A stretch of DNA of 64,000 nucleotides. Origin: Pedobacter zeaxanthinifaciens. GTDB taxonomy: Bacteria > Bacteroidota > Bacteroidia > Sphingobacteriales > Sphingobacteriaceae. The notes beneath the pieces were generated by a model, which was not told the DNA's origin, ran no database searches, and worked only from the letters and a program-made list of their open reading frames with translations. Both the position numbers and the translations under genes were made by a program. Position 1 is the first letter of the stretch; each line of letters begins with the position of its first letter. Positions 42,181 through 44,396 of this stretch are shown one piece after another. The stretch covers positions 33,383 through 97,382 of the forward strand of contig NZ_QMHP01000008.1 in NCBI RefSeq assembly GCF_003313335.1, read 5' to 3'.

Positions 42181-43101
42181 TTATTGTGCAATCTCAAAGC
42201 TGCTTAAATTCACAAATTGTTGCAGTCGGCTGCTGATTTCTTCTTGGCTTAGTTCCAATAAGCGCTCTGTTCCAAATTTTTCAACGCAGAACGATGCCAA
42301 CGCGGAGCCATAAATTAGCGCATTTTTCATGTTGTTAAAATTGATGGTGCCAACTTTAGCTAGGTAGCCAATAAATCCGCCAGCAAAAGTATCGCCAGCG
42401 CCAGTTGGATCAAAAACATCTGCCAAAGGAAGTGCAGGCGCAGAGAAAATTTTGTCTTCGTGGAATAACAAAGCACCGTGTTCACCTTTTTTGATGATCA
42501 GGTATTTTGGACCCATGGTTAAAATTTTGTTTGCTGCCTTTACCAGGGAGTATTCGCCAGAAAGTTGACGGGCTTCAGAATCGTTAATGGTTAGTACGTC
42601 TACCATTTTGATGGTTTCTAACAAATCATCCATCATAATGTCCATCCAAAAATTCATGGTGTCCATTACAATTAGCTTAGGCCTGTTTTTAAGGCGTTTA
42701 ATTACGGTTTGTTGTATGGCAGGGGTTAGGTTGCCTAACATTAAATATTCGCAATCTTGGTAGCTGTCGGGAATAATGGGATCGAAGTTCTCCAATACGT
42801 TCAATTCCGTAATTAGCGTATCACGACTATTCATGTCGTTGTGGTATTTGCCGCTCCAAAAGAAAGATTTCTCGCCTTCTTTAACTTGTAAACCTTCGGT
42901 ATCTACACCGTGCTGGTTAAGTTTTTGAATGTCTTCTTTTTTGAAATCATCGCCCACAACGGCAACAATTTTTGTTTTGTTGTAAAGGTAGGAAGCTGCC
43001 AAACTAGCAAACGTAGCTGCGCCACCTACAATTTTATCTGTTTTTCCAAAAGGAGTTTCTATGGCATCAAAAGCCACAGTACCTATGATTATCAGGCTCA
43101 T
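42181..43101 (-). CDS. PfkB-family sugar/nucleoside kinase
   Basis: 306 aa, cytoplasmic. N-terminal glycine motif GGAATFASLAASYL and the C-terminal anion-hole and catalytic base motif DPTGAGDTFAGGF are both present. An Asn-Asp-Ser-Glu-type motif (TINDSEARQL) sits at the middle. Substrate could be ribose, adenosine, fructose or another sugar. The gene is monocistronic, upstream of the tRNA region on the other strand. Confidence 0.9.
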   Translation of the reverse strand: MSLIIIGTVAFDAIETPFGKTDKIVGGAATFASLAASYLYNKTKIVAVVGDDFKKEDIQKLNQHGVDTEGLQVKEGEKSFFWSGKYHNDMNSRDTLITELNVLENFDPIIPDSYQDCEYLMLGNLTPAIQQTVIKRLKNRPKLIVMDTMNFWMDIMMDDLLETIKMVDVLTINDSEARQLSGEYSLVKAANKILTMGPKYLIIKKGEHGALLFHEDKIFSAPALPLADVFDPTGAGDTFAGGFIGYLAKVGTINFNNMKNALIYGSALASFCVEKFGTERLLELSQEEISSRLQQFVNLSSFEIAQ

Positions 43102-43243: not shown

Positions 43244-43358
43244 TCCTTCTTAGCTCAGCTGGTTAGAGTCCCGTACTTACGGGATTAATCAGGGGGTGCG
43301 AAGAGAGCGAGCCAAAGGATTTTGGTGTAAAGTTTAATGATAACCATTTAAAATATAT
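43244..43358 (+). repeat. Disrupted tRNA-Asn-like unit 0
   Basis: TCCTTCT acceptor-like bases and the TAGCTCAGCTGGTTAGAG D-arm are intact, then TCCCGTACTTACGGGA replaces the anticodon stem. The T-arm-like end is degenerate (GAGAGCGAGCC). Ends directly at the first true tRNA. Confidence 0.8.
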
Positions 43359-43432
43359 TCCCGAATAGCTCAGCTGGTTAGAGCATCTGACTGTTAATCA
43401 GAGGGTCGCTGGTTCGAGCCCAGCTTCGGGAG
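43359..43432 (+). tRNA. tRNA-Asn (GTT), copy 1
   Basis: 74 bases folding as a full cloverleaf. Acceptor TCCCGAA pairs with TTCGGGA; the D arm is AGCTCAGCTGGTTAGAGC; the anticodon loop CTGTTAA reads GTT; the T arm is CTGGTTCGAGCCCAG. CCA is not encoded. Followed by its own terminator at 43438-43462. Confidence 0.96.
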
Positions 43433-43437
43433 CAAGA

Positions 43438-43462
43438 GCCTTACATGTTAGTAAGGCTTTTT
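43438..43462 (+). terminator. Terminator after tRNA-Asn copy 1
   Basis: GCCTTAC and GTAAGGC with a six-base loop and TTTTT. Confidence 0.85.
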
Positions 43463-43503
43463 ATTTGAAAAGTTAATAGCCAATATTTCCGTTAAAGGAA
43501 TAT

Positions 43504-43845
43504 TCCCGAATAGCTCAGCTGGTTAGAGTCCCGTACTTACGGGATTAATTAGAGGGAGCAAAAAGGGTTGAGCCAAAGGATTTTTGGTTTAAGGTTTATT
43601 GATAATAAAAAAAATATTCCCGAATAGCTCAGCTGGTTAGAGTCCCGTACTTACGGGATTAATTAGAGGGAGCAAAAAGGGTTGAGCCAAAGGATTTTTG
43701 GTTTAAGGTTTATTGATAATAAAAAAAATATTCCCGAATAGCTCAGCTGGTTAGAGTCCCGTACTTACGGGATTAATTAGAGGGAGCAAAAAGGGTTGAG
43801 CCAAAGGATTTTTGGTTTAAGGTTTATTGATAATAAAAAAAATAT
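43504..43845 (+). repeat. Three perfect 114-bp tandem disrupted tRNA-Asn units
   Basis: Units begin at 43504, 43618 and 43732 and appear identical base for base. Each has the tRNA-Asn acceptor and D arm (TCCCGAATAGCTCAGCTGG, TTAGAG), then the TCCCGTACTTACGGGA hairpin where the anticodon arm should be. A remnant of the T arm and an A/T-rich joint follow. The next unit begins directly at the following TCCCGAA; the last unit joins the second true tRNA. Confidence 0.93.
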
Positions 43846-43919
43846 TCCCGAATAGCTCAGCTGGTTAGAGCATCTGACTGTTAATCAGAGGGTCGCTGGT
43901 TCGAGCCCAGCTTCGGGAG
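43846..43919 (+). tRNA. tRNA-Asn (GTT), copy 2
   Basis: Identical to copy 1 over 74 bases: same acceptor, GTT anticodon and T arm. A terminator at 43924-43953 follows at once and also ends directly at the start codon of the GIY-YIG gene. Confidence 0.96.
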
Positions 43920-43976
43920 CAAAAGCCTCACAGTCCGTGGGGCTTTTTTGTTTGATGACATTTTACATCTACATAC
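43905..43976. repeat. Direct repeat, left copy: tRNA 3' end, terminator and nuclease start
   Basis: Begins GCCCAGCTTCGGGAGCAA, runs through the tRNA terminator into the ATGACATTTTACATC start of the GIY-YIG gene. The right copy is at 44301-44372 and differs at only a few bases. The pair flanks the nuclease gene. Confidence 0.9.
43924..43953 (+). terminator. Terminator after tRNA-Asn copy 2
   Basis: AGCCTCAC and GTGGGGCT (one G-U) form a stem, then six T. A duplicate lies at 44321-44350. Confidence 0.85.
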
Positions 43977-44260
43977 TTTGGTCGGAGGTTTCCGATATCT
44001 ATTACGTTGGCTACACTTCCGACTACGAAAAGAGGTTGTTGGAGCACAACACTAGCATCTACCATACGTTTACTTCCAAGCATAGACCGTGGTTACTTAA
44101 GGCTGTGTTTAGCTGTGGCGATAATAAGTCGGAAGCTTTGCGCATTGAGCGTTTCATTAAACGGCAAAAGAGCAGGAAGCTGATCGAGAAATTAATTGCA
44201 GGCGATGATTTTAGCGGTGAGTTCGCTCAGCTTGTTAGAGTCCCGTATATTCGGGAATAA
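43955..44260 (+). CDS. GIY-YIG nuclease with tRNA-derived C-terminus
   Basis: 101 aa from the ATG at 43955, which gives the family N-terminus MTFYIYILWSEVSDIYYVGY (the GIY and YIG equivalents are YIY and YVG). Arg in YEKRLLEHN and the Glu-bearing helix EALRIERFIKRQ complete the small single-domain nuclease fold. The last residues (AQLVRVPYIRE) are read from a disrupted tRNA-Asn D arm and hairpin at 44216-44260. It starts two bases after the T run of a tRNA terminator, so read-through may be needed. Homing or repeat-linked activity is possible but unproven. Confidence 0.88.
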   Translation: MTFYIYILWSEVSDIYYVGYTSDYEKRLLEHNTSIYHTFTSKHRPWLLKAVFSCGDNKSEALRIERFIKRQKSRKLIEKLIAGDDFSGEFAQLVRVPYIRE

Positions 44261-44315
44261 TCAAAGGTTCGCTGGGAAGTATGATTCCGATTATTGGAAA
44301 GCCCAGCTTCGGGAG
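44216..44315 (+). pseudogene. Disrupted tRNA-Asn copy behind the GIY-YIG gene
   Basis: A D-arm-like GCTCAGCTTGTTAGAG precedes the hairpin TCCCGTATATTCGGGA. The T-loop is broken by about 25 bases (GAAGTATGATTCC...) between GCTGG and GCCCAG. The acceptor 3' end CTTCGGGA is intact, but the 5' acceptor is not. It overlaps the last 45 bases of the nuclease gene. Confidence 0.82.
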
Positions 44316-44372
44316 CAAGAGCCTCACAGTCCGTGGGGCTTTTTTGTTTGATGACATTTTGCATCTGCATAT
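44301..44372. repeat. Direct repeat, right copy
   Basis: Matches 43905-43976, including the terminator and an ATGACATTTTGCATC start-codon remnant that stops after nine codons. Confidence 0.9.
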
Positions 44373-44396
44373 CTTCTTAGCAGATAGCTTTTTGAG

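Follow-up and report, generated by a model that had tools for sequence, protein, structure and literature searches.

A small GIY-YIG nuclease gene lies inside a cluster of intact and disrupted transfer RNA (tRNA) genes in a 64,000-nucleotide stretch of the Pedobacter zeaxanthinifaciens genome (contig NZ_QMHP01000008.1, positions 33,383 to 97,382; hereafter "the window"). Flanked by an intact tRNA-Asn gene on one side and an incomplete copy of that tRNA on the other, the gene has one end within or beside tRNA sequence. Comparable genes occur throughout the phylum, and they apparently represent selfish or duplication-driving elements that reside within genes the cell needs. We give about an even chance to the reading that they form a family of free-standing, homing-type GIY-YIG genes that live inside tRNA genes, cut tRNA-gene DNA, and spread or amplify through tRNA recombination. 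We base this reading on the anatomy of the array, its phylum-wide conservation and tRNA specificity, the comparison of empty and filled sites, the match between intact "dead" 3′ halves and the local tRNA, the covariation of a recurrent hairpin, and purifying selection on the nuclease, all of which are shown; the cutting of tRNA genes, the spread by recombination and the role of the hairpin are inferred.

Anatomy of the tRNA-Asn array

The window belongs to a 4.25-Mb draft genome in 26 contigs (G000; G- and L-numbers label genomes and loci). The array lies entirely on the + strand, between a PfkB-family gene and an oxidoreductase-like open reading frame (ORF) that was named by inspection. Its order is dead unit 1, tRNA-Asn, three identical dead units, tRNA-Asn, terminator, GIY-YIG gene, dead unit 5, terminator and the start of another GIY-YIG gene. 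An earlier sequence-only reading had counted two intact tRNA-Asn genes, five disrupted units and one GIY-YIG gene here, and that inventory was borne out. ARAGORN and Rfam both identified intact tRNA-Asn(GTT) genes at 43359..43433 (no. 1, + strand, acceptor TCCCGAA/TTCGGGA, 70 bits) and 43846..43920 (no. 2, + strand). The motif CCCGN6CGGG occurs in the five disrupted units, at 43270, 43530, 43644, 43758 and 44242, compared to a mean of 0.20 and a maximum of two occurrences in dinucleotide shuffles. The ORF at 43955-44260 matched PF01541 with 54 bits. Apart from the two intact genes, nothing in the 4.25-Mb assembly matches the tRNA-Asn anticodon-arm pattern exactly, and a scan of the window at Rfam gathering thresholds returned two tRNAs only, with no self-splicing intron in a tRNA.

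Dead unit 1 (43244..43358, + strand) appears to hold the 5′ half of a former host tRNA-Asn, followed by a hairpin at 43269-43284, TTAATCAG, a second hairpin (CCAAAGGATTTTGG) and a spacer; its fold z is -2.38. Units 2, 3 and 4 (43504..43617, 43618..43731 and 43732..43845, all + strand) are identical 114-bp repeats with hairpins at 43529-43544, 43643-43658 and 43757-43772, and unit 2 has a fold z of -3.77. Dead unit 5 (44226..44316, + strand) consists of the coding D-arm, a hairpin at 44241-44256 and the tRNA-Asn 3′ half, in which the T-loop has been swapped for a longer insert. The proposal that each unit keeps the acceptor and D arm therefore holds only in part, because unit 5 lacks the acceptor 5′ strand and that of unit 1 is TCCTTCT, as opposed to TCCCGAA in the intact tRNAs and units 2-4. 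Similarly, the anticodon arm is not replaced outright by the hairpin, as had been described. Only its 5′ strand and part of the loop are lost, and TTAATCAG (TTAATTAG in units 2-4) is retained.

A terminator-like hairpin (43921..43947, + strand) separates the second intact tRNA-Asn from the nuclease gene (43955..44260, + strand). A near-identical copy (44317..44343, + strand) follows unit 5 and precedes the first bases of a truncated GIY-YIG copy (44351..44376, + strand; by eye against 43955-43980). The terminator and the first ~25 bases of the gene thus recur at 44317-44376 as a truncated second unit. This structure is no assembly artefact, because many other assemblies contain a like structure; in G472 it sits on a contig of 6.45 Mb. 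The idea that assembly error explains the units is rejected accordingly, though the copy number of the identical 114-bp repeats may be off in a 26-contig draft. A sigma-70 promoter scan is uninformative for Bacteroidota.

The nuclease gene ends within a disrupted tRNA

The GIY-YIG gene encodes 101 amino acids, and its C-terminal tail (...FAQLVRVPYIRE) derives from a tRNA D-arm plus the hairpin. Read in frame, D-arm and hairpin (GCT CAG CTG GTT AGA GTC CCG TAC TTA CGG GAT TAA) yield AQLVRVPYLRD and a stop codon, and the window's protein terminates with ...AQLVRVPYIRE. Therefore, the "disrupted tRNA" beside the nuclease gene is the 3′ end of that gene, which the sequence-only reading had missed.

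Residues Y6, Y17, G19 and E65 are invariant and R27 is nearly so in a 46-row alignment (A1); we take these five to be the catalytic residues. The nearest solved sequences are the UPF0213 proteins 1zg2 (E-value 1.1e-5) and 1ywl. A structure model with a predicted local distance difference test (pLDDT) score of 88.9 and a weak tail gave At-HIGLE and Slx1 as its top fold matches, and UPF0213 folds were also matched. We found no match in PHROG (E ≤ 1e-3), PADLOC (up to E 1) or NCBIfam.

Codon comparisons indicate that the nuclease is under purifying selection. The ratio of nonsynonymous to synonymous substitution rates (dN/dS) is 0.15-0.18 in three pairs with dS of 0.25-0.46. Elsewhere it is 0.20-0.82 in six pairs at dS <0.07 and 0.40-0.55 in seven pairs near dS 1, and the median over all 16 pairs is 0.42. 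We also considered conservation of the tail as protein. Because synonymous invariance of VRVP..RD is imposed by the search pattern, this argument was left unused; the tail positions free of the pattern had synonymous measures of 0.04 (Q), 0.28 (A) and 0.49 (L), versus 0.53 in the body of the protein.

Empty and filled sites within the genus

The PfkB-family kinase gene (42181..43101, - strand; family assigned by inspection, not by family search) is a syntenic anchor beside tRNA-Asn in the genus, and it allowed the comparison of empty and filled loci that the sequence-only reading had proposed. A pfkB match (E ≤ 1e-60) is present in 54 of 60 genus genomes. We examined 50 of these loci and found tRNA-Asn beside pfkB in 48, with the other two cut by contig ends. 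Scored by content, 27 loci were T (tRNA-Asn), 14 were TT (tRNA-Asn tandems), seven had dead units and two were cut off. Thus, 41 of the 50 loci have tRNA-Asn without a dead unit that fits the pattern, and a GIY-YIG match is found in five of the 50. Among the 41, L207 (scored TT) contains a decayed unit in which, by eye, the hairpin has changed on both sides, and L184 (scored T) has the unit's spacer only.

The intact tRNA-Asn of relatives lies ~145 bp from pfkB. In the window and in L181, L190, L192 and L201, a dead unit takes this place, and the intact tRNA is found ~114 bp further on. The nearest relative of the window genome (G458, pfkB 97%) carries the same TCCTTCT acceptor as dead unit 1, and on the strength of these sequences we read unit 1 as a probable relic of the host's earlier tRNA. 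Whether the TCCCGAA acceptor proves the tRNA to be foreign was also considered, but this argument is weakened by its occurrence in G033, G456 and three other members of the genus.

There are 35 loci with the order tRNA, GIY-YIG gene and dead tRNA, and 13 of their dead 3′ halves are intact (at least 85% identity to the local tRNA). Eleven of these are identical to the local tRNA and two match it at 97% (mean 99.6%), versus a mean of 82.9% to the tRNAs of other loci. A single crossover that brings nuclease and dead tRNA into a resident tRNA would produce such a match, and gene conversion or local duplication would do so equally. The remaining 22 dead 3′ halves have undergone changes; by eye, at least 12 carry a further TCCCG hairpin in the T-arm.

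Distribution across Bacteroidota and relatives

Units with up to two mismatches were found in nine of 59 relatives and nine of 395 phylum genomes (the window genome is counted in both), and none of the genomes listed in the two sets matched the reversed control pattern. An exact search for TTAGNG-TCCCG-N6-CGGGA over species genomes returned at least 119 stretches, comprising 113 from Bacteroidota, four from Chlorobiota and two from Ignavibacteriota, which together contain 201 units. The following counts are among the matches listed. A GIY-YIG match ends in the unit, making the unit its 3′ end, in 78 of 201 cases, with at least 42 of the 101 model positions covered in 66. An intact tRNA-Asn lies on the same strand within 800 bp at 71 of 119 loci, and on the opposite strand at none of the 119. 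In 40 of the remaining 48 loci, at least one unit lies within 700 bp of the end of the stretch. GIY-YIG matches occur within 800 bp at 82 of 119 loci if tail-only matches are included, and at 71 with at least 42 model positions. Units upstream of the intact tRNA-Asn are found at 40 of 119 loci and so are not general. The usual order is one or more dead 5′ halves, tRNA-Asn, terminator, and then one or more GIY-YIG-dead tRNA pairs. The repeats can be numerous: L100 has 11 upstream units with a 79-bp period, and G722 carries four tandem nuclease units at 379-bp spacing. The sequence-only reading would have been refuted if no GIY-YIG gene or hairpin stood next to such tRNAs in other genomes; this was not the case, and hairpin units, intact tRNA-Asn and GIY-YIG genes occur together across the phylum.

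We also searched 295 genomes of the class with the A1 profile and obtained 26 matches in 21 genomes from 19 genera. Among 25 loci fetched with the profile, 20 have a same-strand upstream tRNA-Asn, two have tRNA-Ala(GGC) and three have neither (L391, together with L392 and L394 at contig ends). Within the genus, 11 profile hits of at least 85 bits fall in nine genomes, including the window's; two genomes have partial hits only, and 51 of 60 lack a hit at this threshold. Searching by title and the start of the abstract, with subscription papers mostly outside that scope, we found no earlier description of GIY-YIG genes nested in bacterial tRNA genes or of hairpin-disabled tRNA halves.

Similar arrangements at other tRNA genes

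Within the genus, weaker profile hits and matches to PF01541 revealed a similar sandwich at tRNA-Val(TAC) (L280-L282). Comparable arrangements are found at Leu(TAA) in L298, where G472 has eight nuclease copies at 397-399-bp spacing; at Leu(GAG) in L291 and L297 (and L376, from the tally only); at Ser(GGA) in six genomes, of which L354 and L364 were read; at Arg(CCT) in L363, where the gene starts inside the dead copy and its stop codon lies inside the intact tRNA; and at tRNA-Ala in L398. The nuclease gene is upstream of the intact tRNA at Ser and Arg, not downstream. The L291 locus resembles the Asn arrays closely, with three dead 5′ units, the tRNA, a terminator, the GIY-YIG gene and a dead tRNA carrying D-loop and T-loop hairpins.

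Small ORFs (<200 amino acids) matching PF01541 were tallied in 40 genus genomes. Eighteen of the 80 places listed are within 350 bp of a tRNA or transfer-messenger RNA (tmRNA) gene, all on the same strand, and one "Ile" call among them is a degenerate Val by eye. Of two others, one is 1048 bp away and one is a tail-only match at a contig end. The tmRNA case is L361 (G451:C1:2303029-2305638), where the small GIY-YIG gene follows tmRNA at a distance of 207 bp, in the same orientation, and no dead tmRNA copy is visible. At L006 (G000:C20:250470), a GIY-YIG gene that is not near a tRNA has on either side palindromes (TCATGCTGAA..TTCAGCATC) resembling repetitive extragenic palindromic (REP) sequence, which would suit a nuclease associated with REP elements. 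An NPNWxDL-like end is common to several further GIY-YIG genes that are not at tRNAs.

Dead 5′ units also precede tRNA-Thr in four genomes (G000 C25:181643, G513, G529 and G538) and tRNA-Met in three. The unit at G000:C25:181643 (L226, L255, L270), outside the window, consists of a tRNA-Thr(TGT) 5′ half and the hairpin TCCCGTACATACGGGA immediately ahead of the intact tRNA-Thr in a Thr-Tyr-Gly-Thr cluster. An intact tRNA-Met(CAT), followed by tRNA-Glu, is preceded in L246, L248 and L253 by between one and three dead tRNA-Met copies whose D-loop carries a TCCCG-type hairpin. The pattern GGTAGAGTCCCGN6CGGGA with up to one mismatch occurs in 20 of 201 genomes, and its reversed control once each in two; of ten loci then read, L242 and L247 contain no tRNA units.

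A covarying hairpin in the dead copies

The 166 distinct units contain 63 distinct TCCCG-N6-CGGGA hairpins. The five outer base pairs are nearly invariant, though mostly fixed by the search pattern. Inner pairs 6 and 7 form in 92% and 86% of hairpins, compared to 39% and 48% after shuffling, and the tip is free, with its bases pairing in 41% versus 37% shuffled. In alignment A2 (51 rows), the covariation score is 0.216, versus 0.042 for shuffled and at most 0.030 for slid partners. These results show that the inner pairs of the hairpin covary. We considered whether a purely palindromic protein-binding site could be the whole story, and rejected it on the grounds that the tip bases are unpaired and the inner two pairs covary. 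G-U pairs are too few to distinguish an RNA hairpin from a DNA hairpin.

The position of the hairpin depends on the lineage. It follows GAG in most Asn units, takes the form GCATCTGA-hairpin-AGGGTCC in L396, lies in the D-loop at Leu(GAG) and Met, and has a shifted form in L174. Because placement varies between lineages, the hairpin arose or moved more than once. In the predicted folds of units 1 and 2, D-loop CUGGUUA pairs with UAAUCAG (UAAUUAG in unit 2) after the hairpin and thereby lengthens it; the remnant is therefore not predicted to fold as a tRNA. The dead Asn units of L124, L129 and L133 have an additional hairpin, TCCCG-type in the first two, in place of the D-arm 5′ strand; hairpins thus seem to supplant successive arms.

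The motif is not confined to tRNA remnants. G000 contains 30 TCCCGN6CGGGA sites (two for the reversed control), 24 of which are neither at the array nor at tRNA-Thr. The 25 sites outside the array include one tRNA-Thr unit and many in contexts of terminators, REP sequences or REP doublets forming hairpins (REPINs), and these contexts are compatible with, but do not prove, a REP source for the hairpin. L220 and L221 (G000:C12:151956 and C21:403908) are REPIN-like, with inverted TCCCGAACATTCGGGA pairs ~50 bp apart. G000 has three Y1 transposase matches, none inside the array; one, at C25:32728, is just left of the window and some 44 kb from the array.

Discussion

We propose that the nuclease would cut DNA within the tRNA gene that it accompanies, or at array junctions, and that repair through the repeated tRNA homology could then lead to insertion, tandem amplification or transfer of a nuclease-dead tRNA-terminator unit. 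Survivors would be those products that keep one intact tRNA, and for this reason the host's last working tRNA would end up inside the array while old copies stay behind as dead halves. The TCCCG-N6-CGGGA hairpin may refold a dead copy into a self-contained stem, which could remove the cut site and/or ensure that the remnant neither folds with the working tRNA nor is processed like it. The sequence-only reading had suggested that the array is an element which exploits or copies tRNA-Asn and whose active part is the nuclease. That suggestion fits the comparison better than simple decay, and co-occurrence, covariation, purifying selection, the catalytic positions and the six other tRNAs now add to it. 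A bolder version is possible, though we hold it to be somewhat doubtful: that isoacceptor-specific GIY-YIG lineages (Asn, Val, Leu, Ser, Arg, Ala) are chromosomal selfish elements that would destroy the resident tRNA gene and hold essential tRNA genes hostage through a rescue copy in the array, the only working one, and TCCCG-marked dead copies, in effect a natural home-and-rescue drive.

Phage T6 provides a precedent. There, the GIY-YIG homing endonuclease SegB drives tandem amplification of a tRNA-Tyr-segB unit, which its authors believe to recombine through microhomology that the 5′ end of the tRNA shares with the 3′ end of segB (PMC13096335, in the part of the article available). In the Bacteroidota loci such homology comes with the gene itself, which terminates in or abuts a tRNA copy. 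The seg genes of T4 are described as free-standing homing genes, with segB located between tRNA genes (PMC2988022, available part). The resemblance to these T-even phage genes, as far as the available text describes them, lies in a GIY-YIG gene among tRNA genes and a tandem unit of tRNA plus nuclease gene. In contrast to SegB, the Bacteroidota family is chromosomal, encodes a short YhbQ/UPF0213-like protein, is accompanied by hairpin-disabled tRNA remnants, and comprises several families that are each bound to one tRNA species. The protein is like the UPF0213/YhbQ type in its nearest solved sequences (1zg2, 1ywl), single-domain size and fold, and differs in that the gene is nested between tRNA copies and has a C-terminal tail from the tRNA D-arm and hairpin. 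We liken the elements to free-standing GIY-YIG genes linked to tRNAs, and there is a fair chance that they constitute a new class.

Other systems share individual features. Group I introns of tRNA genes lie in the anticodon arm. Group I introns and their homing endonucleases also place mobile endonuclease genes in tRNA genes (PMC3984707, available part), whereas no intron was seen here, the tRNA is duplicated, and Rfam finds two tRNAs only. The elements share short conserved palindromes with a variable tip with REP sequences and their associated tyrosine transposases (RAYTs), and REP-like TCCCG..CGGGA occurs elsewhere in the genome; by contrast, the array hairpins are tied to a place in the tRNA remnant and the linked gene is GIY-YIG, not Y1. 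In toxIN loci, tandem structured RNA repeats are followed by a terminator and then a nuclease gene, much as in the array. The array differs in that its nuclease is GIY-YIG rather than a ToxN-fold ribonuclease, its repeats are tRNA halves, and these are absent from many loci. No ToxN/AbiQ-fold endoribonuclease was found: the fold is GIY-YIG, and PADLOC gave no match up to E 1.

Several observations weigh against homing-type nuclease genes as the explanation, and the weakest link is that the working tRNA has no visible protection. In the loci read, the intact tRNA beside the gene shares its anticodon arm with that of the empty host, so no cleavage-resistant rescue copy is evident. Self-protection is called an open question for SegB as well (PMC13096335, available part). 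Nor does homing alone explain the repeated use of one hairpin sequence. The association with tRNA genes and dead copies is also imperfect: eight listed loci away from stretch ends have no tRNA-Asn; the profile match at L391, with no tRNA, counts against a strict rule; the 20 Asn loci fetched by profile include L397, which lacks a dead copy, and L389, which has a trace only; Val loci L284-L286 are without a dead copy; and 60 of the 80 listed small GIY-YIG places are not near a tRNA. The dead 5′ halves at tRNA-Thr and tRNA-Met, which also escaped the sequence-only reading, have no GIY-YIG profile match in the 1.7-5 kb around them. The spacer before the second tRNA is common with TT loci such as L195, and the units therefore look derived from TT tandems, as opposed to simple insertion.

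At E ≤ 1e-5, tblastn matched none of 50,697 phage records, a search of 72,556 plasmid records was likewise without a match, and of 199 pattern stretches from viral contigs none was confirmed, so no vehicle is known. With regard to a possible integrase-borne element targeted to tRNA genes, the ~0.4-kb unit itself has room for the GIY-YIG ORF only. A tree of 54 proteins (88 columns) requires 11 changes of order label, compared to a minimum of four and 22.4 after shuffling, with few resolved forks and 13 of the 54 rows without an order. The gene tree thus mostly follows host orders, and long residence would fit it better than rapid spread.

A passive history, in which tandem tRNAs decayed, REP-like TCCCG..CGGGA sequences inserted into their loops and a GIY-YIG gene settled by chance or at a hot spot, seems unlikely to us as a full account. 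It draws on the frequency of TT arrays without pattern hairpins (14 of 50 pfkB loci), on the excess of TCCCGN6CGGGA sites in G000, many REP/REPIN-like, together with three Y1 matches, and on the additional hairpins that dead copies carry in T-loops and D-arms. What it leaves unexplained is that the nuclease 3′ end is a dead tRNA in 66-78 of the 201 units among the matches listed, over the whole phylum, that in most Asn units the hairpin falls at precisely the same site and its pairs covary, that the same architecture recurs at several tRNAs, and that the nuclease is under purifying selection. Decay of tandem tRNAs, which the sequence-only reading offered as its alternative, still forms part of the history, as the same 14 TT loci without a pattern dead unit (one, L207, with a decayed one) attest.

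We rate lower still, as improbable, a decoy system akin to type III toxin-antitoxin modules, in which the GIY-YIG enzyme would attack the operon's tRNA and the hairpin-bearing dead copies would act as uncleavable RNA decoys. This model accounts better for the hairpins and upstream arrays than homing does: pairing of gene and decoy is tRNA-specific, the hairpin structure covaries, the dead leader units fold well (z of -2.38 and -3.77), up to 11 decoys occur in tandem (L100), a terminator stands between tRNA and gene, and the architecture is repeated at tRNA-Leu(GAG) in L291. It requires, however, that a GIY-YIG enzyme cut RNA, and to our knowledge the GIY-YIG nucleases characterised so far act on DNA; the DNA nuclease Slx1 is among the best fold matches. 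In many loci the nuclease is present and upstream units are not, the Thr and Met units have no nuclease match, and the decoys lack a whole acceptor stem. Least probable of all, in our view, is a device that benefits the host, whereby the nuclease provokes duplication of its own tRNA upon depletion, for example by tRNA-cleaving defences or toxins, and dead units are by-products. Repeated tRNA copies in tandem units and the SegB precedent in phage T6 (PMC13096335, available part) speak for it, but most of the repeated units are dead and cannot raise tRNA dosage, and no profile hit reaches 85 bits in 51 of the 60 genus genomes sampled.

The TCCCG hairpin that recurs in these loci poses a puzzle of its own; its structure is well defined and covaries. 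If the homing-type reading is right, cellular chromosomes would hold a phylum-wide counterpart of the phage SegB strategy, in which nuclease genes reside in tRNA genes, duplicating and disabling them, and each lineage is specialised on one tRNA. It would account for the unusual tRNA arrays, disrupted tRNA halves and short GIY-YIG ORFs seen in Bacteroidota, and these genes would provide a natural case of an element that is hard to lose because it encloses the only copy of an essential gene.

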